From Arenicola marina (taxonomy: Eukaryota > Annelida > Polychaeta > Arenicolidae): 64,000 bases of DNA. Each line of letters starts with the position of its first letter. Position 1 is the stretch's first letter. Made by a program: the position numbers and the translations under genes. Shown in pieces: positions 8,403 through 44,640 of this stretch. The notes under the pieces were generated by a model that had not been told where the DNA came from, made no database searches, and worked only from the letters and a program-made list of their open reading frames with translations. The DNA is taken from contig OZ025248.1 in assembly GCA_964019135.1 (NCBI GenBank), positions 71,120,119 through 71,184,118 of the forward strand, given 5' to 3'.

Positions 8403-8674
8403 CACTTGCTTTTTGTTGAAAACACGCAGTTTGCTGCCAGCTCTATTTCTATTCCGTTGTTCGTCGAGATTTTTCCACGACCACCGACGGCGAAGCCAAG
8501 GACCAACGGAAAACGCCGGAATATCTTGGAACCAAAAGCAACTGCGTAATAATTAAGCAAAGACGCGACTAATTATCAGCTGACGCAGCAAGTTATCGTG
8601 ACCTTCACTTCTATACCTTCACTTCTATCTCAGTCTATATAATATCCAAGGAGAGACTACAGACCTCACTAATC

Positions 8675-8857
8675 ATGTGCAGAAGTTGTTTACTGGTGGC
8701 CTTGTCGCTCGTGACTCTCGGCTGCCTCGTCCAGTTTCCAATCTCCAGCGCCAGATCAGTCTCACAACCCACGTGGTTGTCACCAGATGGCGCCCCAATC
8801 GACTCGCCCGTGAACCAGGACAACACAGACAACTTCCGGTCAATTTTAAAACAGAGG
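8675..8857 (+). CDS. Peptide precursor exon 1 (signal peptide)
   Basis: This exon has 61 codons from the first ATG after the predicted start site. It ends with codon AGG followed by the consensus donor GTAAGT at 8858. It encodes the signal peptide and the first part of the spacer, including an acidic/polar run ([17 protein letters not shown]). Reading past the donor gives a stop within 13 codons, as expected for an intron. Confidence 0.75.
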
Positions 8858-11800
8858 GTAAGTACACCGTGTCTTGTCAATTTTCTTGAAGCATGATTAT
8901 TACAAGCCGTGACGAAGGCTTGGAGTGGCCTTATTGTCTACGACCAAGCGCCTTTCGCTCTCCTAAAGTATATTCATCGATCCAGCAAAGGCACAATGAC
9001 TTGACGGACACTCCATACAGGCTCGATTTAAAATATATTTTGTTTTTATGTAACTAACAGGACGCACCCCAATATTTCATGTTTCACCCGACGGACTATC
9101 AAATATGCAGGCAATATTTATCTGAATGCAGGGACGGATCCAGATATTCTGGATAGGAGGTGGGGCTCTTTCGAAAGGTGGCGTTTTGTGTGCATGTGTG
9201 CTCTGCAGTGCACAGTGTGTGTGTGTGTGTGGGGGGGGGGGGGGGGTTGACAGCTCAAGGAGAAAATAGAGCGACGATATCTATTCCTCGATGATATTGC
9301 AATTGAGCACTGGAATGAGGTACAATACCAAACAGTGATTAATATATGCCCACGCCAGGTAGTCGTATCTTAGTATTCTTGTTTAATTGATTTTCATTAT
9401 TTTAGTACCTTTTTTTAGTTACGACTTTAATGCAACGTTGGCAACGCTTAGAATTGGAGCCTGCCATGAACAACTTGACTCTTCTTTGGCATGTCTGACC
9501 CACATAGTCTAAAATAGTTCGCAATACCAAGATCAAATTATATATCCACTAAATTCACCCAACAGTTGTGGGAGATTATTAGGAGAAGTATTGCTGTATG
9601 AGCAGCGTGACGTCACCCCAAAGCGTCACAGACACACTCCGTGGCTAATTGTTAGCAGGGCGTGCTTCCACCCGTAAGAAAAGAAGGCAGGATGGGGGTT
9701 CCAAAATGAGTAATAATATTTGGTGGGCGTGGTAGAAAAAAAGGAGCAAGAATGGTATATGAAAGGTTCACGAGAGGATGACGAGTTTCTATCTTCCATC
9801 TTCTTCAAGCTCACGTCGCTTTAACCAATTCTGGTGATATCGCGTCAATGGGAGACGGAAAGGAGGAGGTGAGCCATGTCTGCGGTGCAACCCGCTCCTC
9901 CGTGCGAAGAAGGACATGTAATGTGTACCGTGCGACCACACAGACATGGCCACGGCGGGGCGCGAACCACAGATCTACGTGCCGTCAGGCTCTCAATGAA
10001 AGCGCTCTAACCCTCTATTCTAACATGGAAAAATGAAGAAGAGCAGCGATGGGTTCGCCTGCGCAAGAGGAACGCTTAGAAAGTACCAGAGAAAAAAGGC
10101 AATGGGCAGACTGAGTGCCAAGATAAGGGGCGGCGAGAGTGCCATGATAGGGTCAGGAGAATGGCGGTGCTAGGAGAGGTTGATACGGAGTTAGAAATTA
10201 CCTTCTTCACAAGAAAGAGAGGACCAGAATAGAAGATATTATGTGTTGGTGTTTTAGGCTTTTTTTTTCACACAAGAGCTAAACTGGACAAAGGAACCTC
10301 AACGGATGATGAAAGGTGGAGGGATGAAACATGCCCCATATAAGGTACCCGCAATTATTGATCTGCGGTCTAGATTGTTAACCACTACATCAGGAAGGCT
10401 CCTTCCAAAAGAGAAGAAGAGAGAGTGGACGGAATTACTAGAGAAGATTTGGAAACCGGGGGTGGGGGGGGGGGGGTGGCGGGTGTCCGAAGACAAAGGA
10501 GTGTCTGGGGTCGGATTCATGAGAATCATCTGGGCCGAGGCCGGTGCCACTCGTTCGAAGCATCAAGTCCGAGGTAGGTTCCCGACTCATGTGAAGCATC
10601 AAGTCCGAGGTAGGTTCCCGACTCATGTGAAGCATGAGGTCCGAGGTTGGTTCCCGACTCATGTGAAGCATCAAGTCCGAGGTTGGTGCCCGAATCATGT
10701 GAAGCATCAAGTCCGAGGTTGGTGCTCGAATAATGTGAAGCATCTGGTCCGAGGTTGGTTCCCGAATCATGTGAAGCATCAAGTCCGAGGTTGGTGCCCG
10801 AATCACGTGAAGCATCAAGTCCGAGGTTGGTGCCCGAATCATGTGAAGCATCAAGTCCGAGGTTGGTGCCCGAATCATGTGAAGCATCAAGTCCGAGGTT
10901 GGTGCTCGAATAATGTGAAGCATCAAGTCTGAGGTTGGTGCCCGAATAATGTGAAGCATCTGGTCCGAGGTTGGTTCCCGAATCATGTGAAGCATCAAGT
11001 CCGAGGTTGGTGCCCGAATCACGTGAAGCATCAGGTCCGAGGTTGGTGTACGAATCATGTGAAGCATCAAGTCCGAGGTTGGTGCCCGAATCATGTGAAG
11101 CATCAAGTCCGAGGTTGGTGCCCGAATCACGTGAAGCATCAGGTCCGAGGTTGGTTCCCAACTCATGTGAAGCATGAGGTCCGAGGTTGGTTTCCGACTC
11201 ATGTGAAGCATCTGGTCCGATGTTGGTGCCCGACTCATGTGAAGCATTTGGGCCAAGCCCGGGGCCAGAACTCATGTGAAGCATTGGAGCCGAGGGCTGG
11301 CGACGCCTCGCAACGTTAGATTATTTATCGGTCACCGTAGACATAAATACAGGCTACAGTATATTTATTATATTATAGTATATATCTATTGTTTCTTTGG
11401 GGGGGAGCATTTCGGCCCCAAAAAAGGGAGGCCTGGGCCGGGAGCCCCTCCCCACCCATCCCCGGGATCCATCCCTGGGATGTGTTCAATATGGAGAAGT
11501 CCTGTTCCTATGGAAGCTCTCAGGGGACATGGTTGATAATATTTCTTCAACCCTACTCTACTTAATATCTCGAGATCTCGACTTATTATCACGCGATTCG
11601 CCTTACTAAGTAAAGACCTCCACTTATTATCTCGAGATCTCGACTTATTAAGTAGAGATCTCGACTTATTATCTCGAGATCTCGACTTATTATCTCGTGA
11701 TCTCGACTTATTAAGTAGATACCTCGACTTATTAAGTAGATACCTCGACTTATTTTCTCGAGATCTCGACTTATTAAGTAGAGATCTCGACTTATTATCT

Positions 11801-14800
11801 CGAGATCTCGACTTATTATGTAGAGACCTCGACTTATTATCTCGAGATCTCGAATTATTATCTCGCGATCTCGACTTATTAAGTAGAGACCTCGACTTAT
11901 TATCTCGAGATCTTGGGTTATTAAGTAGAGACATCGACTTATTATCTCGAGATCTCTAGTTATTAAGTAGAGACCTCGATTTATTATCTCGAGATCTCGA
12001 CCTATTAAGTAGAGACCTCGACTTATTATCTCGAGATCTCGACTTATTATGTCGTGATCTCGAAGTGTTATCTCGCGATTTCGCCTAATTAAGTAGAGAC
12101 CTCCTCTTATAAAGTAGAGACCTCGACTTATTAAGTAGAGACCTCGACTTATTATCTCGAGATCTCCAGTTATTAAGTAGAGATCTCGAGTTATTATGTC
12201 GAGATCTCGACTTATTTTCTCGAGATTGCGACTTATTATCTCGAGATCTCGACTTATTAAGTAGAGACCTGGACTTACTAAGTAGAGACCTCGTCTTATT
12301 ACATAGAGACCTCTACTTATTAAGTAGAGACCTCGACATATTATCTCGAGATCTCGACTTATTAAGTCATGATGGGTGTTATTACGGGTCTCGAGTCGAG
12401 ATCTCGAGATAATAAGTCGAGCTAATAAGTCGAGGTCTCTACTTAATAAGTCGAGGTATCTACTTAATAAGTCGAGGTATCTACTTAATAACTCGAGGTC
12501 TCTACTTAATAAGTCGAAATCTCGAGATAATAAGTCGAGGTCACTACTTATATAACTGGAGATAATAAGTCGAGGTCTCTACTTAATAACTCGAGATAAT
12601 AAGTCGAGGTCTCTACTTAATAGGTCGAGATCTCTGCTTAATAAGTCGAGATCTCGAGATATTAAGTAGAACATGGTTGAAGAAAAGTTTTTAACCCATG
12701 TCCCCTAAGAGCTTCCGTATGTTCGTCTGTCCGTACCGTGGACCGGTCCCTAATCTATAACCAATAGAGACAGCACAATAACATGGGTATTACAGTAGCT
12801 ATGGCAGCACGAATACTACAAACAGATTTCACTGACTTAAACTTTACAAATTGTAAGTATATATCTATGTATGAATGTCCTGCATATCCGAGCACAATTA
12901 TACCGCCGAATATTGCCTTGCTTGATGGGCTCGAATCGCCAATTTGTAAATAAAAAGCCAGTTTGATGAGGGAAAGAATTACTAGCATGGTATGTATGGT
13001 AAGAAATCTCAATAAAATGTTTATTGATGGTTAAAAAATAAATTGACCCCATCGAAGGTTGGGTTGAAAAGGCCACGCACAGCATAGTGGCAAGCCTAAA
13101 GGCAACAAACAAGATGCACATAAAAAGAGATTTTATGAACAAATCGTGCATATATATGAAATCGCGATTACGGGGATGGTGGGTGGGGAAAAAAACCCAC
13201 TGATTATCACGGATTGAAATGAAACAGGAAAAATAAAAACGTCCACCTTGTTCTGACTCTGACCGGAAACGGGAAGCGCTAGTCCCCGTGGTTGATATAC
13301 AATGTAGGACTAACCGTGGGACACAAGCATATTGAAGTTTTAACGTTGCAAAAACTCTTTATTTATTCAATATGGCTATATTAAGTAAATGTCACTATAT
13401 TGATTAAATGTCGATAATTTTTTTAATATATCTATATTTATTAAATATATCTATATTTATTAAATATCTTAGTATTTTTTAAATATCTCTATATTTATAG
13501 ATACCAGAAATATTTAATGAATATCTATATTTATGAAATACCTCTATATTTATGAAATATCGCCATATTTCTTAAATCTCGCTATATTGTTTTTTTGTTT
13601 CTATATTTAATATAGCTAAAATATGCAAATACCACTAAATATAGGAAATACCGCAGTAAATAACATTTCTTGTATTATTGTCTACTTATTTCATCATGTT
13701 AAAATTCAATGGAACACAAATTGATTATTTATCATCTACTTTATTCATTTATTTACGTATTAAAGTAATTTTATGTGCATAATATATAGCTACCATATAC
13801 TATGTATAGCCCGCAAATATTTGTTTAAAAATGGCATCACAAAGGTGCATATTACGCCACCTCAACTTTAATTAATAGCTTTTGTATGGTGCATGGTATT
13901 ATGTTTACCGCAATGTCACTCATGCTGTATGATGATACATAATTGTCAAATGCCCTTTAGAAAACAAAAAACCGGGGTTCCTTCATCTTAAAAAGATTCG
14001 AATGCAATTAAGAAGAACAAACAGAAACACAGGAACGGCGTGAACCTGTCTAGTCATGATTTTATGGCGACCAAATGCGTCACGTGACAACGCAAAGGAG
14101 AGGCTAGGTTTCTGTGTCCAACCGTTATTCACCGAAAGGTCAGTGGATTGCACTATACTGAGGAATATAATAGAGGTATTCAATTCCCGACCTCCCGGGC
14201 CAGCGGCCCATTATATTGGCAATTTGAGCCCTGCCCATTCAATGTGCCCCCCCCCCCCCCGACCGCTTCTCGCACGCAATTCGTCTGATGAGTTACTTGG
14301 TATTTTATATAAATATTTATATGTCTCTATTTATATCTATAATAGAATATGATGAAGATATATAATCATAAAAGCCATAATCAGGCGGTGAGTACTATAC
14401 AACCACTGGATCTGGGGAGGTATTTCTATGGAATTCCTTACACATTTTACTGCCCAGATACGTGCTTAATACGCCTAAGTGTTCAGCCCTGGGTTTTGTA
14501 ACCGTTTCAATTAGATTTAATTAATAACATGTAGTGTGATTGATGATTGCGCCTTTGTTGTGCAACCGCCGATGAGGCCGAGTGGCCGGTCAGCGGGGAG
14601 GCTGAGCAACCCTCTGACGTAGGGGATGACGTCACGTCGGTTAGACCGGAACACGTGCGTAGCTATGGAAGCGGGCCGGAGCGAACGATAAAATAGATGC
14701 GCGGGCGATAGGGTGCGTGTGTGTGGGGCGGGGGGGGGGGGGTTAGATGGGCCACAATATAGCCCTCGGGCGGTGATTGAGATGGGGTGGGGGTGGTGGT

Positions 14801-17800
14801 GGGGGCTGAAGGCAATGTGTATGTAGTAGAGCAGTCATCGCGCCACAGGGCACGTGAGGCTTGGAGGCAAGCCTCTGGGGTGGGGGCGCGCTCGGTGGGG
14901 GGTGGGGGGGGCAACGATGTGAAATATCTAGGAGACTAAGTACCCCGAGCGGGTTTTGTCGCTGCTGGGGAAGAGATGAGGAAGAGACGGATGGGGGCGG
15001 GGGGGGGGGGGGCTTACATATCACCTGATGGTGGTAGTCAATCCAAGGTAGTATAGTGACACCACAGCCGGCAGCAGTCTGCTAGATCTCAATGGACCAT
15101 TATTGTACGGTAGCGTAACATCTGACAGACGTCTGGTGTCATGTCTATAGCCGCACTAACGTCCCAGCGCATGGCCCGTGACAGCCAGGCAAGCCCGGGC
15201 GACAGATATTCTGCATGCGGTCAACCTCCCTTTGTCCATATCCAGATTTATACATCTCTTCGGCTGGCATTAGGTTTCCGAAATCTGCCTGTCTCGACTC
15301 CCTCTTACTTGTTATTCACCACTGGCACACAATGGAATGGATACGCAGCCGGTCAAAGAGGTGGCAGTTTTAGTAATTGTAATGACGTTACTGAGAAAAA
15401 AAATCAATGCGAAGTTCGCGTCTATATAATTTATAACAGCCACCATCTAGACTTTTCGCTCGAGTTCGTTGTTTTGAGGGTAGAATTTCTTTTGCAATTA
15501 ATCTGGTAGAACTATGAACTGTATAAGGTCAATGTATTATAGAAATATATAATCATACAAAAATCACTTCCAGTGAAATCTGATTTCATGCATTAGTCAC
15601 AGAGAGAGAGACGGGGCTGGGGGGGGGGGGGGGTGGGGGGGGAGCTACAATATCGGATTATAATCACAGCCTGGTCATATCGTTCTCACGTATCCTTAAT
15701 CAACCCGCCCTACAATGTAAACACACATACCGTTAACAGAGGAGTAAATGAGAAATAGGGAAAAATAGTCAGTGGTTGCGAGGCCAATTAATCCTATCGT
15801 TAATAAATTAATAATTGGTTTTTATGGTTTTAAATAAAACGATATTAAGTGATAGTGATATTTGGCAGGCCTATGTTCTCCTGCTCTTCACACAGGCTGG
15901 CAGTGCATATTATATGGCAGGTATTGTGTCCTAATTTATACATGTAATTGTAATTAACTATTTGTTTTATCTATATGTACCTTGCGTCATGAGCCTCCAG
16001 GCCAGAGCGCGGTATGATACGACCGGGGGTGGTGGGCTAGAGCTTTCGCAGCAACAAGGCATGAGGGGTCCACATCCAACATATCTGGGGGGCCCACGCC
16101 AATATAGGAGTACAGGTTATACTCAGCACGGACCTTCGCACTAACCAAACCATTGCGTCTTAGGCAAAGCTATACATATTTGACAGGTGAGAACAGGTGT
16201 TTTGTGGTCCCTATTTGACCCTATTTGTTTTATTTATAATTATGCTTTAATCGCCCTGAACTTGAGTCTCCGGAATTAGGACGGTTTTCTTAAACGAGAC
16301 GAAATCGTAGTTAGCATAGTCTGACGAGGCGAAGTCATAATTAGCAGTCTGAAGCCATCTGACGCCCTGGTGTTAGCGTTTGAATTTCAAATCGCGACAG
16401 CCTTTAAAAATGATATATATAAAAGTAATTGCTCCGGTTAGGGATAACTGTATTCGACTCTATCCCCTCTTACATCCTCACTCTGCCAGCAGAGGGAGCT
16501 CGTTCCTCACATCACCTCTGCATGACCCACGTAACCGCTAACATCAAGGTTGAACGGTGCCAGCGTCACGAAGGGTTTTGCAGGGCTGTTTATAGACTGG
16601 ATTTTGTATTTTCGATGCAGAATTTGAAAAATATAGACATTAAGTTGTCTTACGATCACATGGAAAGCGAACAAATATTTAAAAATGACACGGGTTCAAA
16701 TCACTTCACGCTTTTGATCCGGATCGAACCTGAAAATATAGTAACATGGTTTCTAATTGATCAAAATCGAGTGAATTTGTTTTGTTTACGGGCACCAGTA
16801 AAGGTAACAGTTGTGTAGTTTATGCCAAACTGCGAACGCGTCTCCGATTATATTCATGTTAAATGTTCGCGTATGAAGGATAACTCTGTTGGCGTTGGGC
16901 AGAGGGACTATAGTTGGGGGGGGGGGGGGGGGGTCAAGAAGGGGTCGTATTCACAGATCACAAAGAAAAAAAAATAGATAATATAAATTTCTCGATTTCC
17001 CGATTCACGGTTATATAATATTAAAATTCACAGTTCACGATTAATGAAAATTCTTGATCACGACTGTCGGCTAATACCTCATTCCCGGTTTAAGGAGAAT
17101 TATTTTCCTCATTCCCAGTTCACGGTGAAATGAAAAGCTTATTCTCGAGGACCGGATATACCCCTTGCCCCCCCCCCCTCCCCCCGATAGTGTAAGCCGG
17201 GAGATTGCTACATCCTTAGTAGACTAGACGTTGCCAGACAAACATTGGCACCCAAGGAAATACGAGATAAATACTTAGACATACATAATGTATGCCTCCA
17301 ATTGCGCAAGGCAAACATTTATAAACCTACTGAATACAAAAACATCTGGTGGGATGGTGACAAATTTAGGAACAGAAGTCTAACAGAAACTTTATTTGCC
17401 GAAATAACGAACTATAGATATATGCCTACATGATTGCAACGTCTAGGCCTTATTGGCTTTTTCACTAGAGAAATTAAACACACCCGGTTCAGATTCTTAG
17501 ATTCAAGGTACCCTTATGGTTACTGTGTGACTCCTTTAACGCTGGGACTGTTATCTAGCTAGTCGTTGTCGCGTGGACCTGTTGGCCGTGGTGCGGTGGA
17601 ATGCAACACTTCACGACCCAGTAATAGTGTCCAGCAACACAATCCGTACCCACCCCCTCACCCCTTATCCGCTACCCCCACTACCCCCATTACCCCCTCC
17701 CCCCTTCACTTCCCTTAGTCACCTGCACCTAACTTTCATGGCACGTGCTGCGGTAATCGCTGGATTTCCACATGGTTTATGCCTGGTATAATATGTCATT

Positions 17801-20800
17801 TGCAACATACTTTTAACGACGTTATGTGCCGGACGACCGTGACGGAGGGACCTAAAATAACAACTCTCGACCATTCCAGTGGGTATTAAACTAGTCTGCT
17901 TCCGCCTGAGGAATGGGTCACACGGTCACACGTGCGAGTCTACATACGGAGTATATACTTTACATAATATTAACCTACTCATACGAAAGCGGTATTTTAC
18001 GGGGCAATGGTAATGGGGAATTGGGCTGGCAAGGAGGGACATCGGTATCTCCCAGCCTCATTCCCGTGCAGGCCCGTTAGAACGCAGTTACTCCCCCCCC
18101 CCCCCCGCCCCCCCCCAAAAAAAAAAACAAGAAAAACACATGCCTCCTGTGCCCCCCGAGGATCAGCCAATGACGACTATGGCTTAATGTTCCTGATGTG
18201 GCTACGTTACATGTGACCATCATTGTATCACATTGGAGGAGTAAGGTTTATTCTTATGAACCGCCATCTCGTTAAATTGCATCGTTTGTCCTGGTATATG
18301 AGGAATAAGACTCGCGGTGTACCGGGCAGGTTTTAACCCTAACCGCAACGTGCCAGTTTTCAAAGACGTTTTTTCGCACCCGCGTAATATAACAATGTCA
18401 TGCGAGCATGCTTAAAAAGCACCTGTCATATGACTAAGTGACTGTGTCGCCGTCACGCTCTACCTCTACATACTGCCCAGGGGGAGGGTTCTTCACCCTG
18501 TTTAGCCCTCATAGAGTATTTTGGGCAGTTTGTAAGTAGTAAATAAATATCGATTGCGCAAAAAAGCCTTCATGTGCACTTCATAGGAATAAAACCCCAA
18601 CTTTTCATTTCAAAGCCTTTTCTCGAGGGTCAACCTTGCTATATGAGTAGCCCTACGAGATGCCATGACGTACACAGCGAAAGGTCAGCGATAGATGGAG
18701 CCACTGAGACATGGATACGCCTACGCTTTGGCCTTCTGACGGGCTCAGGGAACAATGCGCCGACTGAAACAATGAATCCTGCGGCTTTCGGTTGTCCGTG
18801 ACCACTAAATAAAAGGAATATCGCGAGACAACAGCATCCTGTAAGCTGCTACCCGTGGGGGGTGAGGGGTTGGAGTGGGGGGGGGGGTCTAAATTTAGGT
18901 CTGGTGCATGGATTGATACATTGGTTGATTGATGGATAACTCTCTGTTCATGATGGAAAGTAAATATCCCTTTGCCTTCCGCCCCATTCTACCCCCCCCC
19001 ACACACACCCGGCCATAGCACACAATCAGATCGATGCCAAACATGACCCATCGTTAACATAGGGACGGTTTGTTGTGTCTCAGACCACTATTCTTTAGCA
19101 TGCCTTCTGTAATTGCTGAGCAAACTTTAATTTACAATGATTTTTCACTCTGGTGTACCCTTATTTAGGTGGCAGGACAGTATAATGTTAAAAAAAAACA
19201 AGTTTCGGTTTTGGCAGCAAGAAATCCCTTTAGTTTATTTTAATTGTAACTATTTACTACAGAGGCCGAACCAGGGGCTCCATCGGGATACGTCCTTCAA
19301 GGTGACCGTTGAATAGATCGTCACGGTATTGGTGGCCACAAAGACGATTCTATTGAGATTTTGTGGTGATGATTCAGTAAATTTTTCATCCTTGCCCTAC
19401 ATGTCTGAGGATATCATTGCACTTATATGGACTGCATTATTCCTGACATTCAGGCTTCGTTCCAACAATGACACCTGAGTCATCCACATTCAATGTGAAG
19501 TGCAAGCTAATGAGAGTATCACCCTCTTCGTGTATGTGTGGATATTGTTGAAAAAAACATATGGTGCAGGCCATGTCTAAAAAGTTAATTCTCAAGGCAT
19601 TGAGGTGTCTCCCCCCCCCCCCCATCGAGGTTCAATTAATTTAGTGACACTTTGTAAATGATACGATTTTTACGATGATCGCGTATGGAATTTCTGATGC
19701 AGAATCAGGTTTGAGCCGATGCATCAATCGGTAAGGAAGTCTCTTCCTGTCCCCCCTCCCTGGACATTAGGCCCGTGGGGGGGGGGGGGGCACTGTTCTA
19801 CAAATCTGGTGGGCGGGTTCTGCGGGTGCCCTTGATACTTGAGGGAGCGGACATTTGTGATGAAAAGATACCCCTATAGAACGGACATTTTAAAACTTCC
19901 GACCGGTGGGGGGGGGGGGCGGCTCAGAAAATGTGCGACATATATAGAGCGGGTCAACAGAAATAATACCCCTTCGGCCCGATTTTTGGCGGTAAAACGC
20001 CCCGACCTAGCGGATTTCGGAGGGGAAAGGGGGTGGGGGGTCGGCATTACCGCGGAACCCCGCGGAACCCAGCAAAGTACCTCCCACCGCGGCCCACCCC
20101 ACCGCCAGCAGGGCAGCAGGGACTATAGGGCGAAGCGGACATGCCTGTATACGCACAGCAATGTCTGCCATACGTCCGTCTGTCCTATTCTGGCCCCTTC
20201 TTTGTCTTCTGCTGTATTACATGGCGTCCGGCATGGTATGAGGCCGGCCACTTGAGGGCCACTGTCCCACCTGCATGTGGCGGTTCAAGGGTCACTTGTA
20301 TAGGCAGAGAGGGGGGGGCGGGGAGCGGGGAGTATAAACTATGATACGGCCTGGAGGAAGGAGGAGGTGGGGTGGTGGTGGTGGTGGTGGAGTGTGGGGT
20401 GGAGTTGAGAGGTCTGACCGAGTCAATGAAACAATGCAAGAACAAAACACTGCCAGGAAGAGAGTCACAACGTGAGACAGCCACGAACAGACTATTACTT
20501 CCGGTGACAAGATGCCCTTTTGAGCGGGAGCCGGCTAGCTTTAGCCCCAGTCCACATGACGGTCGTAGGCGCCCGTACGAAAATACCATTTAGAAATGTT
20601 ATAAAAAAAATTCTAAAGGTTTTTCTTTGAAAATTCTAAACGTTTCGCCATAGAGTTTCAATAACATTTCCATAGAATTTCCATAGATTTTTTCGTAGTT
20701 TCCATAGAATTTAAATAAAATTTCCATAGAGTTTCCATAGAATTTCGATAGAGTTCCCATAGAGTTTCCATAGAATTTCCGTAGAGTTTCCATAGAGTTT

Positions 20801-23800
20801 CCGTAGAATTTCGATAGAACTTCCAAAGAGTTTCCATAGAATTTCAATCGAGTTTCCATAGTTTCCACAGAGTTTCCACAGAGTTTCCATAGAGTTTCCA
20901 TAGAATTTCCATAGTTTGCATAGAGTTTCCATAGAATTTCCATATAGAGGTTCCATGGAATTTCCTTAGAATTTCCATAGAGTTTCCATAGAGCTTCCGG
21001 GGCACTCTCTGCCTTCGACTCACTCCGCTAGGGCTCCATTATATCTCTGTTGTCGCCTACTTCCTCAATGCCTTTTCCAACTCACTCGCCAGGGCGGCGC
21101 TGCGCATATTGATAGGCAAAATGCGTCGCGCATTTCTACAAATTAGTGTTGGGACCCAGCCTAAGCCTAATAACACATGAAATCAGGAGATGAAAAGAAA
21201 GAGTTCTGTCACAATTATAACCTTTTCGAGCGGGTACATGATGTTTTTTGCTGTATAAAGTACGCAAAGCTCGTTATTTTTATGTTTTATTATTGAAAAC
21301 TATAATGCCGCAAGAAATTACAGCTGATTGGACCGTTTTTCAAGAATCTTGAAATTTGCCCCCGGCCGACAGCAGCGGTATAAGCTAGCTTGCGTAGTGC
21401 CACCGTGCGGGGAGCTTGCTTCCGGGGGGCCTCCCTATTGTAGTGATTAGCGCACTCGACCGCAGATCAATAGGTCCTGGGTTCGAATCCGGGCTCGGGC
21501 ACATAAGCTGGGGCATGTTTCATCCTTTCATTCTTCATCGTCCCGAAGGTTCCTTGGGCCGATTTAGCCTTCATGTGCACAAAAGTGGCCTAAACCACCA
21601 ACATTTCATAGAATTCCATAGGGTTTCCAAAGAAAGCGCACGTCGCGGCAGTGCATAGTACAGAGTTCAAGGTCGCCCGGGGTGAGTCCAACTTCAACTC
21701 CGTCTCGGCTGAACGGGCACGGCCGTTGGGCAGACCTGCACATCTCATGCTGCTAATGTTACTGTCCAAAGGATTGGCTCCGCCGCTGCTCTCACTTCGC
21801 AGCAGGTAACCGGTGCGACAGTCAATAGGCCGGCAAGGCTTCCAAAGTTCCTTAAATGCGAAGTTTTAAGTCTTCGAATATCACCTTATATCGTGCCGTG
21901 CCGTCGGTATCCCTTCATATATCGCTTGCAGGAGTCATCATACAAAGAATATTTCAGAATTCGTCAAACCACTCGTTCGCTTGTCGCAGAGAACGTAGCC
22001 TACGTGTGTTAAACCCAGAGCTCGTTGTTGTGCCTGCCGTCAGTTGTAAGGCCGGTATGGAAACTGTTCAAACTCGATGGAGACTATGGAAACTCCATAG
22101 AACTTCAATGGAAACTCCATATAACTTTTATGGAAGCTGCATAGAACTTCTATGAAAACTCTATGGAAATGCTATATTGGAAAACGTTTAGAATTTTCAT
22201 AGAAAATCGATAGAAACCTTTAAAATAGTTTTTTAGTGACATTCTATAAGATATTTGCCTTACGGGGTTTAATTATATCTGATAAACTTAATGCCATGAT
22301 TCGCGTAATAAATCTAGGCAGAGAGAATGACCTTCATGTATCCTTTCACATAAAGAGTACTTCTACAAACCTGCAAACGTACCTGATCATAACCGGCTAC
22401 GAGAGGATAAAAATGGCTTTGTCGAAATATTATCTCTATATACGTTCTATAGAAACCAATTGCTCTATAGAAGTATCCATACATCTTCTATAGAAATAAT
22501 ATTTTCTATAGAAATATCTGTTTATGTTCTATAGAAAATAATTGTCCTATAGAATTATGTACAAACGTTCTATAGAAAATCATATTTCTATAGATTTTCT
22601 ATAGAAATTCTATGGAGTTCTATAAAATGTTTTGCTACTGGCGCGTGGACTCAGATGCGCGTAGACTCAGATGCACGTAAGTTTTTCCAGTTGGGGCTAG
22701 TAGAACTGGATGACCGGGAAAGCTCCAGTGGGTGTTCCTAATATGGCTGTGTTAGAACTTGTTTTGATTGCATATTTTAAAGAGGCGGTAAAAAATGAAC
22801 GTGAAAATGCGGTCAAAGCGTAGAAGAGCACTCGTGGGAGAACGGACTTTATTTTTAACCCCGGGCTGGCTTTTGCATAGTCGGCTGTCATATACATATA
22901 TACATGTTGGGGATTCTGTGAGGTCTCTTGTGAGGCAGGGCGGGAAGATGGCGGAGAGGTCGGAGTCCAACTGATCACACCGCCCCTCTGACTGATTGGA
23001 ATACAATTATCACAAGTAGGGGGGGGGGGGGAGATATCTTTTCCGATATCAGGGTGGGATACCTTTTGCAATATCCGCCATCGGCATCCAGGAATTCCAG
23101 GAGATCCGCGATTAGCTGTTGGCAATTTTTGAGGATCGTTATCCTTACAATTCCTGGTTCAACGCGAATAACGTTTGCCTATTTACCGCCATCCGTTATA
23201 GCAGTGTGTCTCGATATTCGCGATATCACCATTAAGGTTTATTTTTTCGCGAACAGCTTTAATACGTCCTAATCTTGGAGATTCGATATTGCTCTCTGTA
23301 ATTCATGGGGACTCGCGATTCAGAGGGGGTATCCCCCACCTCCCTCTACATGTAGGGAAGAGACGAATTAAGGGTATGTTCAGCAACTGGCCACTGCGTT
23401 CCTCTGATAGCAATACAATTATTGCAGGGAATACGAAAACGTTTCTGCTAACTGGTTAACGTGTTAAAGGGAACCGCCAGCCTCGCCTCTAACGCTGCTT
23501 TACCGATTCATATAATACTCAATTGTCCATATTCCAAATTATAGAGTTTTTCGTTCTATCTGTAACACACAATAAAATTTAGAAGTGACCGCCATGCACG
23601 ATTTAGCCGCCTACCCGGCGGCGGCAGCCCTTTTTGGAGGCGCGTCCGCGATTGACCAATCAGTAGGCGATACTCTAATTTATTCAAACCGGAAATTGCG
23701 CCTATTGTGTGAGCAAAACAAGAGCGCGTGATAATCGCTAATACAAATAGCTGCGATTCTAACTCCAATCATAGCATGGTTGCGGAGTCAATCTTCGCAA

Positions 23801-26702
23801 GACGTATATCAATTTGTTTGGATGGCACTTCTCCATGAAAAACTAAGATCTTGCGCTATTGCGCGGCTTGGAACTGCCGTTGTTCATCTGTAACTCGTGG
23901 CCCTGATCTCTCTCGCCACGCGTTATAACGTCAGGCGGCGCCATATGAATAGTCACAATACGCGTCACTGCTCCCGGCAAAATGGCGCTCTGCTTGACAT
24001 TGCTGGGGGTTGCCTTAATTTTTTTCGCCTTACCAGTCGGCCGAAAGGAAGCGTTACCACTCGCCAATTTAATTTTAAGATGTAAACTTTTGGTACAGAT
24101 CGCGATTAAATTAGGTTGGACCCCGCATGCGGAATGTTGCACCGTAACCCGACGTTATCAACTGATCAACAGCAAGGTGTCACAACAGTAAACGCGGAGT
24201 GAGGATTCAAGCGAGATAAATGAACACTCGCTATTCTTAGTTTATTCATTAGCATATGTTCATATTCCATCGATTGCGTCTTTATGTTCATTCCCATCTT
24301 TTTAATGATCACCGTGCCTTTAAATGAAAATTAGTTTTTCAGAAAACATGTGTGCCTCTCATCTTGTTTTTAGCTTAACGTACGCTTCTGGGTATTCGGT
24401 GATATAGCTAACTGATTTGAAAGGTATGAATAGCATGGGTTTGAAAATGGGTGTGCCAATTCTTCATCTAGTTAACAGTGACATTGCTTTTGGTCGGCCA
24501 AGTTGAAGCAGCTTCGTCTTCCGTCCGCCGTGTTTGTGCCGCGTTGACCACTTTGATCTGCCTCTGCTACCACCTATATACTAGTGTTACACAAGCCGGG
24601 AAAACTGGCATCACGCACCGACCCCTAGCGAATGGAGGCGGAACTTATAGTACACGACGCTCGTTTAACATCGACGCCTGACAACTGATCGCCATTTAAG
24701 TGGCTTTGTTTGGCTCTCGACGCGAGGAACGTCCTCCCCGCCAGGTACCGCCGGCAATGGCAAGAGTCTGTGTGTAATTGGGCAGCGCTGGATGTTGTCT
24801 TCCAACACTCTCAGTCACTCACCTCCCCACCATCCCCCTCCACACCCCAACCCTCTCACCCACACGGATGGCAAAAAAGGATAAGACAAACCATAGGCCG
24901 GTAATTGACTCCTCCTTGCCGGCCCCTTCGCCTTGCCCTTCGCCTCCACGCCCGCCCTTTCCCTCGCCCTTCCCCTCTGTCCCAACACCTCCTTGCCCGC
25001 CGCTCCAGCTTCTACACCCGACTTGATGCCACCACTCACTGCCATGTCCACGAGGCAAAAAACCCCACCCCGACTAAACGCGATACCACATATCATCTCC
25101 CCCCCCCTCTCCCCCTCTCCCCGGTGACTGACGTTTCGTTAGTTAATACCTCGCGGGGGGTGACTGATTAAGAAGTGTCGCAGAAAGTTGAGATAAAAGT
25201 GGTATTTACTTTCCGCATGTCACCAGGGTTAAGTAACCATAAAACGATGACGTAATGTGACTTTGGCTATGATTTATGTTGATATATTGGTGATCTGGTT
25301 TCACATGCGAAATTTCTTTCATCTGCTTCTCGTTTTTTTGCAATAACCCTGACACAAAAAATGATTGATCAACTGCCATGTAGCTTCTTGTCACATGAGT
25401 TCATTATCTTCAAGCAGGCGCTAGTTTTTAGTTTCCCATAGGTACACCTCCTGTCCAAGCAGACGTCAGTTTGGTTTCCCATGGGTACACTTTCTGCCCA
25501 GGCAGACGTCAGTTTGGTTCCCCATGGCTATACATCTTGTTTAAACAGGCGTCAGTGTTTAGTTCCCCATGGCTATACCTTCTGTCCAAGCAGACGGCAC
25601 TGCTTGGTTCCCCACGGGTACACCTCCTGTCCAAGCAGACATCAGTTTGGTTCCCTATGGTACACCTTCTGTCCAAGCAGTCGTCACTGTTTGGTTCAGC
25701 ATGGGTACACCTTCTGTCCAAGCAGACGTCACTGTTTGGTTCTCCACGGCTATACCCCCTGTCCAAGCACACGTCACTGTTTGGTTTCCCATGGTTACAC
25801 TTTCTGTCTAAGCAGATCTAAGTTTGGTTCCCCATGGGTACACCTCCTGTCCAAGCAGACGTCACAGTTTGGTCCCCGTGGGTAAACCTTCTGTCAAAGC
25901 AGACATCCCATATTCGCATTACACACATCAATAAGGCCCCCCCCCCATGATTAATTAATTGTTCATCGTGCCAAATATGGATACATTATGTTTTTTTCTC
26001 ACATATACCAGCTCTATTTTTTGTTTTGTATTCTGTATCTTTTAGCATATATTTGTGATGTTCCGATGATTGTCATTATCCTTCTGACTGTGAGAAAAAC
26101 GCGTTGCCACCCCCCCCCCCACCCCCTCCCTTCACAGCCCTGCAGGCCTCGCTGTAATCATGACCTTTCAAAGGCTCCGGCCAGTCACCTTCCTATCGTG
26201 TTGTCTACGTCTGGAGTACATGATTAAACACTTTTAAATAGAAAAAGTTGTCGTTTTACCGTTATTAATGCGATACCGGATGATGAATGGATAACAAAAC
26301 TGCTTTGATAATGATACTTGTATTTACACACACAAAATCGAATCAAAAAACTCACAAGCTTTTTCTTTATATGGCGGTCGTTCTTTTTCAGCTCTTCAAG
26401 TTAATGGACGAGGTACGACTTCTCTCCAAGGCGGTATCTCTCTCCGCGCCTCGAGGATCCAGACAAGACTTCTCGCCGCTTAAGTCATCGCCTTCCTCAC
26501 CCATGAGGGTCACCAAAAGTAAGTAATGACATTTTGCTTCTGGAGGAATCTAGGCTAATTTGAGAAACTTCGCAAATCCATACAAGGTAATGCAAGGCAG
26601 CATCTGAATCTGAGGAACACCAATGTATGTATGTATGTATGTATGTATGTATGTATGTATGTATGTATGTATGTATGTATGTATATATATATATATATAT
26701 AT

Positions 26703-26740
<38 letters not shown>

Positions 26741-29700
26741 CAGATCATGGGCCCAGAACATTTCAAGACCTGATTGGAATTTAGAATTTTTTGAACAATT
26801 TCTAGCTGAAAATATTTCCTACTGATCTACTGAAGTTAAAGTAGGTATATCCAAACGGTCGAGTTTTGATAAAGGCCGCTTCGTGCGAACCCCCAAAAGC
26901 CCCTCTGCCGACGGCCTTTGGTGTTGCCTCACATTCCGCAGTCGCCTTGTCACTGATGTTTTGGATTTCTGTCCTTGTTTTTGTATATTTTGGCGCGATT
27001 GGTTGATCGCAAGCGTTCTGCGCTAAACGGCAATTTTGCTTACAATGCGCGCAGGTACGCAGCGAAACGAACATGCACGTGTTTTACATGTAATCATTGC
27101 TACATCTAATGTAGGTTACAAGATAGGAGGCATATTGTGTTTGGCATTGAAGGGGCGGCAGCTGTGTCGATATCAAAAAGTCATCGATAATGTTGTTTCT
27201 TCAAACACGTCTCGTAGCGTTATATGTATTCACACTGTTCAGGACTGTAAGGGTAGGCTGCTAAACAACTTGGAAGACGAGAAGTCTGATCTTTACTTTA
27301 ATTAATAGCTTAGGCCATTTTCCGTCAGAATGAATCTTGCAGAGATATATCAAGTTTGGACGGCAGCACGGCAGGTATATAACGATATCGTCGAGATCTA
27401 ATCGTCATTTGTAGCGGCACAGAAAGCATTATAACACATGACTTATGGTTTACTCTGATCACTCTCGTGTTCCATGTTGTCACAGATCCATATGACACCG
27501 GAGGCGGGGGAGGAGCGGGAGGGGGGCGGGATTTCATGTGCGGACAAACCCCTTTTGAAATATAAAACGATAAATATAGGGGTAAATGCCGGATTTTTCT
27601 CCTCGTGAATTTGATTCCTAACTTTTGAAAATGAAGGGTGTGAAAATGGCACCACTCTGGATTGGGAAACGGGAAACGGCCAAGCACGGTTTAATGTCCT
27701 AAATACCTCCCTTGATCCTTGCTAGGTGTCATACGGCCCTGTGACTGACATGGTGTATGGCACAAGAACAATGTTATTAATAAGTAGCATGTGCCATGAT
27801 GATCTGAACGTACCCTCGTCTAATCGGAAACAACATATGTCGGATTTTGAACCAAAAAAACATACACAAATGGTGACGTAGACCTTATCTGCCTGTGCGA
27901 TTTTTCACTTTTCTCTTGGCATTATTACTGTAATTATATCTATGTCATATCTATGTGCCGGCATGTGTCTAGTATCTAAGATGGGAGAGGAAGCAATTAC
28001 ACGCGGTGGTGTGCGTTTCTGCTCCATTTGCACAGAACACGTAAACAGAAACAGAACGAAACCTGAGCAATGCCCACGTGTTGGTATATATTTTATATTT
28101 TTTAAATATTTTTTTTACATTTTTATTTATAATATTTTATAAATATCCAGACTAGGCCAGACTGCTCGTGAGTACAACATGGGCTATGCTGAAATATGAT
28201 TCGCGAGTCATATGTGTAATATGTCGGACTAACGTTACGTGTTTAGATGTAATCTAAAGTGTCATTAACTTTGGGACCACTGGTCTCATGGGAGTTGCCA
28301 CGTGGTCGTTAATATCGGAATTGCGTAATGCCATGCGACTGAATACCGGAAACCGAGCGAACACCTCGTCGGCGCAGACAAGGACACCTGCCTGATGCAC
28401 GCACCACCTTCACCCCCCACCCACCCACCCACGCACGCATGTATGTATGTTGCCATGTGTTCCTCTTTCAGAAGCTTGTTCGTTTGACCTCACTGACCCC
28501 TGGGGGTGCCTGTAAACCCTGTCGCCACCGCGTACCCTGCCGGGTCTTTCCCACACTCCAACAGGTGCCAGTTTGACGAATCAAACAAGATGATCTGCGC
28601 CCCAGCTACGCCAGGCGTGAAGGCCAAGTGACGACAATGCCACATCATTACAGACCAGTGTGGTCTGTAGTTTGTAATAATCGCGTTTTAATAAATAAAT
28701 AACCGGGTATATACTTGTCGTCACCTCACGCACCCTCGAGACTTCCATTTTGCGTCGCACGTTATTACTAAGTGCGAAGTTTAGTACAATTCACAGATGG
28801 TTCAACTGCAACTCATTGAAAAGCCGTAAACTGCGGCCGTAAACAGAGGGCAGCTAGCGATGAACATGTTGGGAAATGCGGTTGGTTGATACTATGTCGA
28901 TGGAATACAATGGCGCAAACAGATATTCCGATAAACTACTCTGTCGGCTCGGAATGCCGCCGTAGAGGGAGGCATGGCGTGGTGTAGGAAGCGGCAGGGC
29001 TGGGAGGTGGGCGAGCGGGGAGCCCGGGGCAGGATGCGGAAGGATGGCGAACGGTGTGTGCTTGTTGCAGTTCCCTTGCGGTTCGGGCGATAATAAGCTT
29101 ATTAATAAGACCCATTATACGCTCGGCTTAGGCTGGTCCAGCTAGATGATTAAATATTAACGTCAGCGACAGTGTTGTTTCTAGCTAAGGGGGGGGGGGA
29201 TTAGCGGCGTGTGTGGGGGGCGGGTTAGACCCCGAAGCTGCATGGCTAACGAATGCCATCCCAAGAGAGCGAGATAAAAGCGCGCAGTCGCCAAGCACGT
29301 TACCCTTGACGTCATCTGGTCTGGAGCCATCCATCTAGTCCTTCTTTAAAAACTGATCGCCCGGCCCGACAGAATGACAACGAGATCTCTACCTCCACCG
29401 GTCGATAGGTGGCGACACCTGTCGACATAGGTTAGGCCAAGTCCACCTGGTGTATGTATGTATTTCGGCCAACGTATGCGGTCGTGAAACGTTACACTTG
29501 TTTCGTGAGCCACATAATTGGATTTCAGTGAGAACGTACAGTGCGAGTACTAGAACAATGCTTCAGTTTATGTGTGAGTACTAGAACAATGCTTCAGTTT
29601 ATGTGTGAGTACTAGAACAATGCTTCAGTTTATGTGTGAGTACTAGAACAATGCTTCACTCTACGTGTAAGTGTCAGGAGTGCTTCACTCTACGTGTAAG

Positions 29701-30750
29701 TGTCAGGAGTGCTTCACTACGTGTGAGTGTCAGGAGTGCTTCACTCTACGTGTGAGTGTCAGGAGTGCTTCACTCTACGTGTGAGTGCCAGGAGTGCTTC
29801 ACTCTACGTGTAAGTGTCAGGAGTGCTTCACTCTACGTGTAAGTGTCAGGAGTGCTTGACTCTACGTGTGAGTGTCAGGAGTGCTTCACTCTACGTGTAA
29901 GTGTCAGGAGTGCTTCACTCTACGTGTAAGTGTCAGGAGTGCTTCACTCTACGTGTAAGTGTCAGGAGTGCTTCAGTATATTGTGTGTCAGTGATTCAAT
30001 CTATACCTGCGTGTCCGGAGTGGTTCGGCTAATGTGTGCGTGTCAGGAGTGCTTCACTCTATGTGTGCATGTCAGGAGTGCTTCACTCTATGTGTAAGTG
30101 TCAGGAGTGCTTCACTGTATGTGTAAGTGTCAGGAGTGCTTCACTCTACGTGTAAGTGTCAGGAGTGCTTCACTCTACGTGTAAGTATCAGGAGTGCTTC
30201 AGTATATTGTGTGTCAGTGATTCAATCTATACATGCGTGTCCGGAGTGGTTCGGCTAATGTGTGCGTGTCAGGAGTGCTTCACTCTATGTGTGCGTGTCA
30301 GGAGTGCTTCACTCTATGTGTAAGTGTCAGGAGTGCTTCACTGTATGTGTGCGTGTCAAGTTACAAGCAATAATGTGTCGAGATGATGCTGAAGTTTATT
30401 GTTAAATACCATTCATCATTTCCTTCCTTTCAGATATAACGTGTTATGCCGCATGAACCCACCGTTAATGGATGTACGTTCTCCCCATTTGACGTAGATG
30501 ACACCGATATATAAGTGGACGTGTATACCTTAGATGTGTGTCCTCACCTGCCCGCTCGCTGGTTGGCTCGCTGGCTGGCCCACCTGATCCTACCCTGCAA
30601 CAACATGCGTTTGTTTGGTCTCCCACTCCCTTGGTTGCAGGACACTGTTATGACGTAGCTGACCCGTGTTGCATGTGGAACTGCGATGCGTGGCCCGGCA
30701 ATAGACAGCGCAAGCCCGCCACCCGCATCGTGCGCAGACGACAGTTCTGA
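8675..30750 (+). CDS. Secreted cysteine-rich peptide precursor, three coding exons (putative neuropeptide/hormone)
   Basis: The coding exons are 8675-8857, 26392-26518 and 30641-30750, for 139 residues. Intron phases are 0 and 1 and agree at both junctions; all splice sites are GT-AG. Residues 1-26 form a signal peptide with a hydrophobic core ([14 protein letters not shown]) and a predicted cut after SSA. Residues 27-102 are a spacer with an amphipathic stretch ([15 protein letters not shown]). K103-R104 is a dibasic convertase site, and the second splice junction lies inside the Arg codon. The C-terminal peptide starts [19 protein letters not shown] (105-123) and ends in a basic tail with RQRK and RRR. 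Four cysteines suggest two disulfides. I recognise no family: the spacing is not that of endothelin, orexin, somatostatin, vasopressin or calcitonin. A venom-type or antimicrobial peptide is an alternative. The gene model is well supported, the function is not. Confidence 0.75.
9900..10015 (-). mobile_element. Second tRNA-derived SINE-like sequence (different family)
   Basis: On the minus strand, tagagcgctttcattgag resembles a polymerase III A-box and tRNA D-arm, and ggttcgcgccc about 30 bases later resembles a B-box. The flanking sequence is unlike the other SINE family in this window. It does not fold cleanly as a full tRNA by eye, so a functional tRNA gene is unlikely. Only one copy is seen here, so the ends are uncertain. 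Confidence 0.4.
10243..10393 (-). mobile_element. tRNA-derived SINE, degenerate inverted copy
   Basis: Its reverse complement matches the SINE body (ttggtgttttaggc at the 3' edge, gaggttcctttgtccagttt, ggggcatgtttcatccctcc) and the head (agaccgcagatcaata). The B-box region is eroded. The order and spacing of the landmarks match the copies at 7419 and 21437. Confidence 0.7.
10556..11290. repeat. 36-bp minisatellite (about 20 copies)
   Basis: The unit is gaagcatcaagtccgaggtt followed by ggtgcccgaatcatgt. The unit length is a multiple of 3 and lacks stops in several frames, so open frames of up to 272 codons appear on both strands with 12-residue periods (for example [12 protein letters not shown] forward, [12 protein letters not shown] reverse). 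With no start context or splice sites, and with both strands open, these are repeat translations. Confidence 0.92.
11509..12720. mobile_element. Foldback element with long inverted ends and a palindromic tandem core
   Basis: The outer 80 bases at each end are inverted copies: atggaagctctcaggggaca on the left, and the complement of tgtcccctaagagcttccgt on the right. Inside are many 21-22-bp units of tctcgagatctcgacttatt, mixed with a variant carrying aagtagagac. Units run forward to about 12367 and inverted from about 12393, so the whole 1.2 kb can fold on itself. Foldback transposons have this architecture. No transposase is encoded. Confidence 0.85.
13360..13640. repeat. AT-rich degenerate tandem repeat
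   Basis: Repeated variants of tctatatttattaaatat about 18-21 bases long, eroded at both ends. No coding content. The adjacent stretch 13640-13980 is also AT-rich and otherwise featureless. Confidence 0.7.
13650..17160. other. Intronic stretch without recognisable features
   Basis: It contains G or C runs (14247-14260, 14730-14742, 14999-15012, 15619-15633, 16916-16933) and two moderately long open frames (15141-15509, 16429-16818) that I cannot relate to any family. Neither has a convincing start context. I see no splice-flanked exon. Confidence 0.45.
17190..17500 (+). pseudogene. Short coding-like relic, possibly of a transposon
   Basis: From about 17191 to 17430 the frame reads protein-like text ([16 protein letters not shown], then [20 protein letters not shown]) without an ATG. 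It stops at TGA 17431 and continues in the same frame as plausible protein ([19 protein letters not shown]). The even composition and readable continuation suggest a decayed coding segment. No conserved catalytic motif is visible, so the family is unknown. Confidence 0.3.
17520..20596. other. Intronic stretch without recognisable features
   Basis: G or C runs occur at 18093-18106, 19611-19623, 19777-19790 and 19908-19919, and a GGT triplet run near 20365-20392. The open frames are low-complexity or lack start and splice context. Confidence 0.45.
20597..20995. repeat. Degenerate tandem repeat of tttccatagA/G units
   Basis: About twenty copies of a 20-bp motif near agtttccatagaatttccat. The minus-strand open frames are Tyr/Asn/Leu-rich repeat translations. 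Its reverse-complement form (ctatggaaac) appears at 22050-22630 on the other side of a dispersed repeat and a SINE. Confidence 0.85.
21003..21418 (+). repeat. Dispersed repeat family R2, copy 1
   Basis: The reverse complement of this 416-bp stretch recurs almost unchanged at 59469-59883. Shared landmarks include ctctgccttcgactcactcc, tttatgttttattattgaaa, tacagctgattggaccgttt (one variant base) and tgcgtagtgccaccgtgcgg. No terminal inverted repeat is obvious. Copy 1 is followed 18 bases later by a SINE. The identity of the family is unknown. Confidence 0.88.
21437..21605 (+). mobile_element. tRNA-derived SINE, copy 2
   Basis: It shares the A-box (tagcgcactcgac), the B-box (ggttcgaatcc) and the full body with the copy at 7419-7587, differing at scattered positions, e.g. 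ataagctggggc against ctaatctggggc. Both copies end near accaacatt, which marks a plausible 3' end. Confidence 0.88.
22050..22630. repeat. Degenerate tatagaaa / ctatggaaa repeat tract
   Basis: Repeated short motifs such as ggaaactccatagaacttc and ttctatagaaat. The first part reads as the reverse complement of the array at 20597-20995. The second part is dominated by the palindrome ttctatagaa. No coding content is supported. Confidence 0.7.
23053..23345 (+). repeat. Dispersed repeat family R3, copy 1
   Basis: Both outer parts match 45757-45925: ggcatccaggaattccagga on the left, and ggagattcgatattgctctc with ggggactcgcgattcagagg on the right. This copy has about 120 extra bases in the middle that the other lacks. 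The family is not recognised. Confidence 0.65.
23525..24127. repeat. Dispersed repeat family R1, copy 2 (uninterrupted)
   Basis: It is the counterpart of 4490-5120 and continues past the point where copy 1 is broken by the LINE. Shared motifs include gaggcgcgtccgcgattgac, ttcaaaccggaaa and cggcgccatatga. Open frames on both strands are shared with copy 1 and are repeat translations. Confidence 0.8.
24200..25430. other. Intronic stretch without recognisable features
   Basis: C/T-rich sequence at 24820-25130 yields Pro-rich frames on one strand and Gly-rich frames on the other. Nothing else could be supported. Confidence 0.4.
25437..25905. repeat. 45-bp minisatellite (about 10 copies)
   Basis: The unit contains ccatgggtacaccttctgtc, then caagcagacgtcactgtttggttc. 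Most copies keep a CGTCA half-CRE. The 45-bp period leaves frames open on both strands ([16 protein letters not shown] repeats on minus). It ends about 490 bases before exon 2 of the peptide-precursor gene. Confidence 0.88.
26392..26518 (+). CDS. Peptide precursor exon 2
   Basis: This 127-base exon lies between the acceptor gttctttttcag and the consensus donor GTAAGTAA at 26519. It opens in phase 0, matching exon 1, and ends in phase 1. It encodes [20 protein letters not shown], a Ser/Pro-rich stretch and the Lys of the Lys-Arg site. The upstream frame stays open in the intron, but no ATG is needed. Confidence 0.72.
26622..26735. repeat. (ATGT)n and (AT)n microsatellite
   Basis: About 15 ATGT units are followed by two AT runs separated by acaat. 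The MYVC and YIYI frames are microsatellite translations. It lies just inside intron 2 of the peptide-precursor gene. Confidence 0.95.
26736..29540. other. Intron 2 stretch without recognisable features
   Basis: No splice-flanked exon or repeat relation was found in this part of the 26519-30640 intron. There are short (CCCA)n sequence near 28415-28430 and a 9-base G run near 29190. Confidence 0.45.
29545..30360. repeat. Composite minisatellite (31-bp and 29-bp units)
   Basis: It starts with four 31-bp units (tactagaacaatgcttcagt plus tttatgtgtgag), then changes to 29-bp units (gtgtcaggagtgcttcactc plus tacgtgtaa). A segment of about 220 bp containing the rare variants attgtgtgtcagtgattcaa and tccggagtggttcggctaat occurs twice, near 29970 and 30190, showing higher-order duplication. 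It ends 280 bases before exon 3. Confidence 0.9.
30641..30750 (+). CDS. Peptide precursor exon 3 (mature cysteine peptide)
   Basis: The acceptor is ccttggttgcag, with a clear pyrimidine tract before it. The exon opens in phase 1: the A from exon 2 plus GA here gives AGA (Arg), completing the Lys-Arg site. It encodes 35 further residues with cysteines at positions 2, 9, 10 and 14, a Trp-Pro-Gly after the last cysteine, and a strongly basic tail ending RRRQF before TGA. A non-canonical ATTAAA lies far downstream; the true poly(A) site is not clear. Confidence 0.75.
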
Positions 30751-33255: not shown

Positions 33256-33269
33256 GTTTCCATGGCAAC
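33256..33269. promoter_or_regulatory. RFX X-box-like motif
   Basis: GTTTCCATGGCAAC fits the palindromic X-box consensus bound by RFX factors (two GTTNCC half-sites). No gene start was found next to it, so it may be a distal element or a chance match. Confidence 0.4.
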
Positions 33270-33733
33270 GCTCAAGGGTTTTTGGCGACGTGGCCAGTGT
33301 GTAGGCACGATGGTTTGTCTCGTACAAAGGGAAAAACTAGGGGTGTGATGAGAGAGGTCTACGACCATATTAAGGAGAGCACCAAATGTAAACAACTTAC
33401 GTTCATCCTACGACGTCATTAACTCCCACCCTTGCGACAAATTGACCGCCTGTATCTGGGGCACAGTTAGAGTAAAGCGTGGATGAACGGAAGCATTAGA
33501 TCGCGGCATATGCTGCTATTTATATAATTGACAAGAGGGGAAATATAACGCAGAGGCATTAACTTTGCCACTTGTTTGCGTTTGTTAATTAAACTGACTC
33601 ATATTGTGATGATTTGTCTTCGCTGGTACATCGAGTATGTGAGGTGGTATGATTTTATTTTTTTGGGGAATTAACTTTGCAGGTAGTTATGCTCAATATA
33701 AAATATGAGTTCTGTTTTATACGCGAGTAAACC

Positions 33734-38358: not shown

Positions 38359-38609
38359 ATACACGAGTATCTATACAATCGTGCATTATTATAATAAACA
38401 TGGAATATTTGACCTTTAGTTACAGCTAAGCATACATGAATTTTCAACCTGCTTTTCCACCAACTATTGCTTTCTTTTTGTCATTTCTCGGGCATATTTT
38501 ATCTGATTTCGTTAGAGTTATCCCTGTAACAAATATGTATGCGTTATCAGATGTTAAAAGGCTGCAATATCGATATGCTGATGTCGTAGTAAAGCAGGCC
38601 ATATTTTGT

Positions 38610-40255: not shown

Positions 40256-40409
40256 AAAGTGTTCGGAGTCAACATCAACACTCAAACCCACGTGCTCACA
40301 ATGATGAGTAATCCGCAAAACGACCCATGTGAAATGTTGTCTGGGACTTCGGGATGCGCAATCTCTGGATCTGGAAGCCGTAGACGTCTAACTCCCTGAA
40401 CGGTTGCTA

Positions 40410-44480: not shown

Positions 44481-44640
44481 AGCATGTCCGCATGTTAGTG
44501 TCCGCGTGTTGATAACATGTTGATAACCACGACCGCATATTGATGACCACGCCCGCATGTTGATGACCACGCCCGCATGTTGATGACCACGCCCGCATGT
44601 TGGTACCCGCGCCCGCATGTTGGTACGCCCACCTGCAAGC
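44481..44640. repeat. Degenerate 20-22-bp precursor-like edge of the 74-bp array
   Basis: Short units such as cacgcccgcatgttgatgac repeat five or six times beyond the regular array. They share the cgcccgcatgttgat core with the 74-bp unit, suggesting that the long unit arose from shorter ones. Confidence 0.7.

Follow-up and report, generated by a model that had tools for sequence, protein, structure and literature searches.

A putative prohormone gene of Arenicola marina in which two common exons precede three alternative last exons for four-cysteine peptides

Does a series of small exons on the plus strand of Arenicola marina contig OZ025248.1 encode a secreted peptide and, if so, does it encode one peptide or several? 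The window analyzed here is the whole 64,000-nt stretch of this contig (assembly GCA_964019135.1) from position 71,120,119 to 71,184,118 of the forward strand, and all coordinates given below are counted from its first nucleotide. An earlier note on this DNA had described a precursor built from three exons across 22 kb, comprising a signal peptide, a spacer, a dibasic site and one disulfide peptide. The three exons are present, with their GTAAGT donors (Table 1), and the order of the elements is as described, with a signal-like start and a Lys-Arg (K-R) pair before a four-cysteine peptide. The last exon of that model (exon A) is, however, not the only one, since two related last exons (B and C) are located downstream and the coding part of the locus extends to position 33149 (approx. 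24.5 kb). Judged from its sequence, the locus is very probably a real gene. It is probable that it encodes a secreted-peptide prohormone, in which two shared exons are combined with one of three last exons, so that a different four-cysteine peptide would be released in each case.

The N terminus encoded by exon 1 satisfies a crude signal-peptide rule (hydrophobicity and residues at −3/−1). Exon 2 is bordered by the acceptor TTCTTTTTCAG and the donor GTAAGT, and its two remaining reading frames run into stop codons. The phases (0, then 1) fit at both junctions, as had been claimed, and exons 1, 2 and A together form an open precursor of 139 residues, in which the K-R pair is restored at the second junction. 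The splice sites were scored with mammal-like frequencies. When sites with equal or higher scores are counted, the donors of exons 1 and 2 rank 8th and 31st among 4066 GT sites, and the acceptors of exons 2 and A rank 66th and 11th among 3471 AG sites. Skipping of exon 2 would result in the loss of the cysteine frame in A, B and C alike. A search for second copies of exons 1 and 2 within the window gave none that were convincing (best E=0.76 and E=0.049, respectively). Intron 2 contains, just before exon A, a minisatellite array (29541-30358) with many weak phase-1 acceptors accompanied by cysteine codons.

The three last exons are phase-matched and lie within 2.5 kb. The K-R site is split by the junction between exon 2 and the last exon (AAA plus A|GA in the case of exon A); exons B and C each follow an AG, complete the same Arg codon and have their own stop codon. 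K-R thus immediately precedes the peptide in all three forms, in agreement with the mono- or dibasic convertase sites that flank mature peptides in neuropeptide precursors (PMC6425005). Each mature peptide contains four cysteines, and the three share the core C-[FY]-[DN]-[LV]-x-[DN]-x-CC-x-W (i.e. C-x6-CC-x-W), with the strings YDVADP in A, FDLSNP in B and FNLGDI in C. The last cysteine loop differs (x3, x6 and x11 in A, B and C, respectively), so that the C-x6-CC-x3-C spacing given in the earlier note is not the conserved feature. The tail of form A is strongly basic; forms B and C are not strongly basic. These exons can be read directly from the DNA, as can their splice signals and phases, the restored K-R and the similarity among A, B and C, and the locus has what characterizes an alternative-last-exon gene, namely shared upstream exons followed by homologous, phase-matched, stop-bearing last exons.

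The combination of these features was compared with chance in several ways. We enumerated exon models consisting of a signal-like exon, a middle exon and a dibasic four-cysteine last exon, with an acceptor threshold of 3.0. This analysis yielded six models on the plus strand, none on the minus strand and none in each of 12 shuffles; exon 2 was used in all six, and the start at 8675 in two. Exon B emerged from this enumeration and exon C from a later motif scan, the acceptor score of C (0.99) being below the threshold. When a 13-residue query from A was run against six frames of the 64 kb, B scored 59, C 51 and the next place 41, and none of 60 shuffles reached 51 (best 41). When only places behind a phase-1 acceptor located 3' of exon 2 were admitted, A scored 77, B 55 and C 47; the next-best place scored 18, and no fourth paralogous exon was found downstream. 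None of 300 shuffles reached 40 in this search (best 34). In tblastn comparisons of A with the window, B was recovered at E=2.2e-5 and C at E=0.001. A phase-1 AG lies directly upstream in 3 of the 11 occurrences of C-x6-CC in six frames, and these are A, B and C. Of the 1924 AG sites after exon 2, 211 are followed by a frame with three or more cysteines within 45 residues; ordered by acceptor score, A (5.85) is 1st among these, B (5.04) 2nd and C 10th. The G+C content of the five coding pieces is 0.52-0.61, compared with 0.45 for the window. The existence of three related last exons is the best evidence that exon A is real.

Among the matches listed by blastn, exons A, B and C with their flanks could not be aligned with one another, with the exception of a single match of 25 bases located 3' of both A and C. 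This match (30954-30978 versus 33237-33261; 80% identity, E about 0.3) lies approx. 200 bases past the stop codon of A and 90 past that of C, and is probably due to chance, though comparably placed. The matches listed also included a C-rich one between the regions of exon C and exon 2 (E about 0.025). The codons of the conserved cysteines vary silently (TGT/TGC) among the three exons. Since the flanking DNA is unrelated, A, B and C have the appearance of old duplicates that are maintained by selection at the protein level. The C-terminal part is apparently the labile portion of the peptides, because the position of the fourth cysteine varies and B terminates within a tandem repeat with a 22-bp unit.

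According to the proposed model, exons 1 and 2 would supply the signal peptide and the spacer common to all forms, and exon 2 would be spliced to A, B or C, the tandemly duplicated last exons. Each of these splices would complete Lys-Arg directly before a four-cysteine peptide, and a convertase would then cut out A (35 residues, with the basic tail), B (16 residues) or C (22 residues). Polyadenylation would follow the signal at 31745 for A or B and that at 33588 or 33993 after C. Because every junction rebuilds the same Lys-Arg before its peptide, the choice of splice site would decide which disulfide peptide is secreted. The model thus predicts transcription, splicing to each last exon, secretion, cleavage, disulfide bonding and an action as neuropeptide or hormone. 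A single-sequence structure model of peptide A was of low confidence (mean predicted local distance difference test score 56, predicted template modelling score 0.16) and too poor for a fold search, and for this reason the disulfide pairing is not assignable. Upstream of the gene, TATA[AT]A has a single match within positions 8501-8680, which is listed in Table 1 together with the other features.

Table 1. Features of the putative prohormone gene (positions within the 64,000-nt window)
Feature	Position	Strand	Remarks
Candidate TATA-like element	8636..8641	+	39 bases upstream of the start codon; putative promoter function
Exon 1	8675..8857	+	ATG start; signal-like peptide (approx. residues 1-26) and first part of the spacer; ends in phase 0, donor GTAAGT
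Exon 2	26392..26518	+	Shared spacer to ...MRVTK plus first nucleotide of the split Arg codon; begins in phase 0, ends in phase 1
Last exon A	30641..30750	+	35-residue peptide with basic tail, TGA stop; phase-1 acceptor
Last exon B	31445..31497	+	R|CFDLSNPCCNWNVQTC stop; phase 1; 16-residue peptide
AATAAA, possible poly(A) signal for A and B	31745..31750	+	Presumed use; others: ATTAAA at 31965, AATAAA at 32054
Last exon C	33079..33149	+	R|HCFNLGDICCVWWHVRHLLDGC stop; phase 1; 22-residue peptide
ATTAAA, possible poly(A) signal for C	33588..33593	+	Presumed use; others: AATAAA at 33993 and 34070

If the model is true, one gene gives rise to three related disulfide ligands through splice choice, which would allow ligand swapping to be tested with secretion and processing held constant. 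It would also provide a family signature (a phase-1 exon, K-R and C-x6-CC-x-W) for orthologue searches in transcriptomes. Exons B and C, whose coding portions comprise 53 and 71 bases, respectively, with the stop included, could easily be overlooked by ordinary gene finders. It is conceivable, though less likely than not, that the peptides constitute an undescribed family of animal peptide hormones, in which the convertase site is split by splicing and the choice of last exon both completes the site and selects one of three ligands, possibly with different effects on receptors. The mechanism itself is not new, since the neuroparsin and CNMa genes of insects also have alternative terminal exons; the peptides may represent a new family or one divergently related to a known family, e.g. 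allatostatin-C.

Several observations weigh against the proposed gene. Intron 1, 17.5 kb long, is spanned solely by phase and splice signals. The acceptor of exon C is modest, below the enumeration threshold. Completion of a basic residue by the splice is, taken alone, nothing unusual (it would occur at 54 of the 211 sites), and four of the six enumerated models are spurious, starting at 5441 or 5453 within a reverse transcriptase region. The final codons of exon B and its stop lie within a 22-bp tandem repeat (31484-31532). For this reason, the fourth cysteine of B may be recent or the exon may be decaying, and its C terminus may have been created or altered through repeat expansion. Codon-usage scores hardly favour the proposed frame, which was the best for exon 2 and exon A only; another frame was slightly higher in exons 1 and C, and B gave a tie. 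When the query was scrambled with its cysteines fixed, 1 of 500 scrambles found a place scoring at least 51 (score 61); none of the 500 found two such places. None of the three forms contains a glycine-basic amidation signal.

The same applies to the result of the database searches, in which neither the form A precursor nor the three-isoform profile had a homologue. Compared with 5.8 billion proteins, they gave no match at E ≤ 10 (33 and 38 candidates, respectively, shared words with them). This null result is weak for animals, because the database contains few named animals: the glycosyltransferase family 92 (GT92) protein encoded elsewhere in the window had 23 matches in it, of which a single one came from a named organism (an animal). 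In Pfam no domain was detected in form A, the form submitted to this search. A sequence search of the PDB found nothing for the form A precursor or the form A peptide; the form C peptide had a single 10-residue match (E=1), which was taken as chance. Literature searches with peptide strings returned nothing relevant; CCNWN alone recurs, in papers with titles from soil or environmental microbiology. Formulas of the C-x6-CC type occur in 64 papers; the 15 of these that were listed deal, as judged by title, with venoms, granulins, metallothionein, a defensin, proteases and other proteins. The literature negative is limited for a peptide family by the form of the surveys themselves (PMC8557429, PMC6425005, PMC9793003, PMC4888303, PMC4237046, PMC4278219, PMC8851493 and PMC4772807), whose main texts leave most peptide sequences to supplements. 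The earlier claim that the spacing matches no known family is thus in agreement with the searches, but it is weakened by the small number of named animals in the protein database and by a possible distant link to allatostatin-C.

Two known systems resemble the locus in architecture. The neuroparsin gene of the locust (PMC4237046) gives five mRNAs with two coding exons in common and one exon of their own each, and its related products contain at least 13 cysteines. The likeness consists in shared exons followed by alternative coding exons for related cysteine proteins, and is one of architecture; here the alternatives are four-cysteine peptides of 16-35 residues behind a splice-rebuilt K-R. In the CNMamide gene of a termite and of decapods, different disulfide peptides are encoded by alternative terminal exons, one of which carries a stop codon of its own, and comparable splice products occur in four of seven decapods (PMC4237046 and PMC4888303). 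There, too, the disulfide peptide is switched by terminal exons, but with two alternatives, a C-x4-C ring and an amidated CNM end, whereas the present locus has three alternatives, four cysteines and no amidation signal. Membership of the CNMamide family was rejected, since the C-x4-C ring ending in CNM-amide is absent.

Two further families were considered on account of their cysteines. According to PMC6425005, the PXRX peptides of conchiferan molluscs have a P[FM]R[WY] motif and four conserved cysteines, likely forming two disulfides, and two members lack the motif. Our peptides, from a putative proneuropeptide, resemble PXRX in their four cysteines. Membership of this family was rejected, since the P[FM]R[WY] motif is absent. 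Endothelins have the pattern C-x-C-x7-C-x3-C. The K-R start and C-x7-C-x3-C are found in exon A, but the leading C-x-C is absent and the x3 spacing is not kept by B and C; in the absence of C-x-C from all three forms, endothelin membership was rejected.

The explanation that survives best beside the proposed one accepts a real signalling gene and regards its peptides as divergent members of a known family, e.g. of the allatostatin-C type with an extra disulfide. We consider this rather unlikely. The C-x6-C ring has the size of that of insect allatostatin-C; the F directly after the first cysteine is one place nearer to it than in the insect peptide. PMC8851493 describes allatostatin-C and somatostatin as peptides with two cysteines, one disulfide and an FXP or FWK motif, originating from the C-terminal part of the precursor, and states that in lophotrochozoan allatostatin-C the proline of FXP is replaced by V, L or I. 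The present precursors likewise have a putative disulfide peptide at the C terminus behind a dibasic site, and F-D-L in B and F-N-L in C are reminiscent of the lophotrochozoan variant. It is because of these two strings that the distant link is kept as the main rival for family identity; A has Y-D-V in this place. Plain membership of allatostatin-C/somatostatin was rejected, since each form has four cysteines instead of two; the strict FXP and FWK motifs are also absent, and the sequence searches gave no match.

It is unlikely that the peptides are secreted toxin-like or antimicrobial effectors rather than signals, with the duplicated mature-peptide exons serving to diversify an effector. Such a role would be in agreement with the shortness of the peptides, their four cysteines behind a dibasic site, the strongly basic tail of A and the variable last loop, which suit an effector as well as a hormone. 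Against it, a single signal and spacer serve all three peptides, no gene family was seen in the window in the searches with exons 1 and 2, and B and C are not strongly basic.

Quite unlikely is the explanation that there is no splice choice and that a single last exon, in all likelihood A, is in use, B and C being relics or unspliced copies. The termination of B inside a tandem repeat and the modest acceptor of C are compatible with it. Relics should, however, have lost their cysteines, Trp, phase, AG and stop, all of which B and C retain despite flanks that have diverged beyond recognition. A chance fit of unrelated splice-like signals and cysteine codons, conceivable in a repeat-rich region where such short exons hold little coding signal, is very improbable in view of the three phase-matched copies and of the shuffles, none of which (0/12, 0/60 and 0/300) reproduced the pattern.

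Apart from the putative prohormone gene, whose five coding pieces exceed it in G+C content, the window (CpG observed/expected ratio 0.90) contains two other protein-coding regions. The CpG ratio, at a G+C content of 0.45, speaks against a vertebrate source; together with these two regions and the many minisatellites it suggests an invertebrate. An uninterrupted frame on the minus strand (36931-38370) encodes the GT92 protein (Pfam PF01697, E=8.7e-27), whose best database relative shares 42% identity with it across 81% of the query length. A reverse transcriptase frame on the plus strand (4996-6354; RVT_1, E=2.1e-22) is probably a copy of a long interspersed nuclear element (LINE); alternative first exons at 5441 and 5453 were rejected, as both lie inside this region. 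At 41759-44487 a 74-bp unit is repeated approx. 37 times (97% match), and minus-strand frames are open there for 804, 956 and 994 residues; these are probably an artefact of the repeat and not a gene. Besides the array in intron 2, further minisatellites with units of 21-43 bp, a range that includes that array, are located at 38619-40262, 10557-11247, 11556-12667 and 44934-45614.

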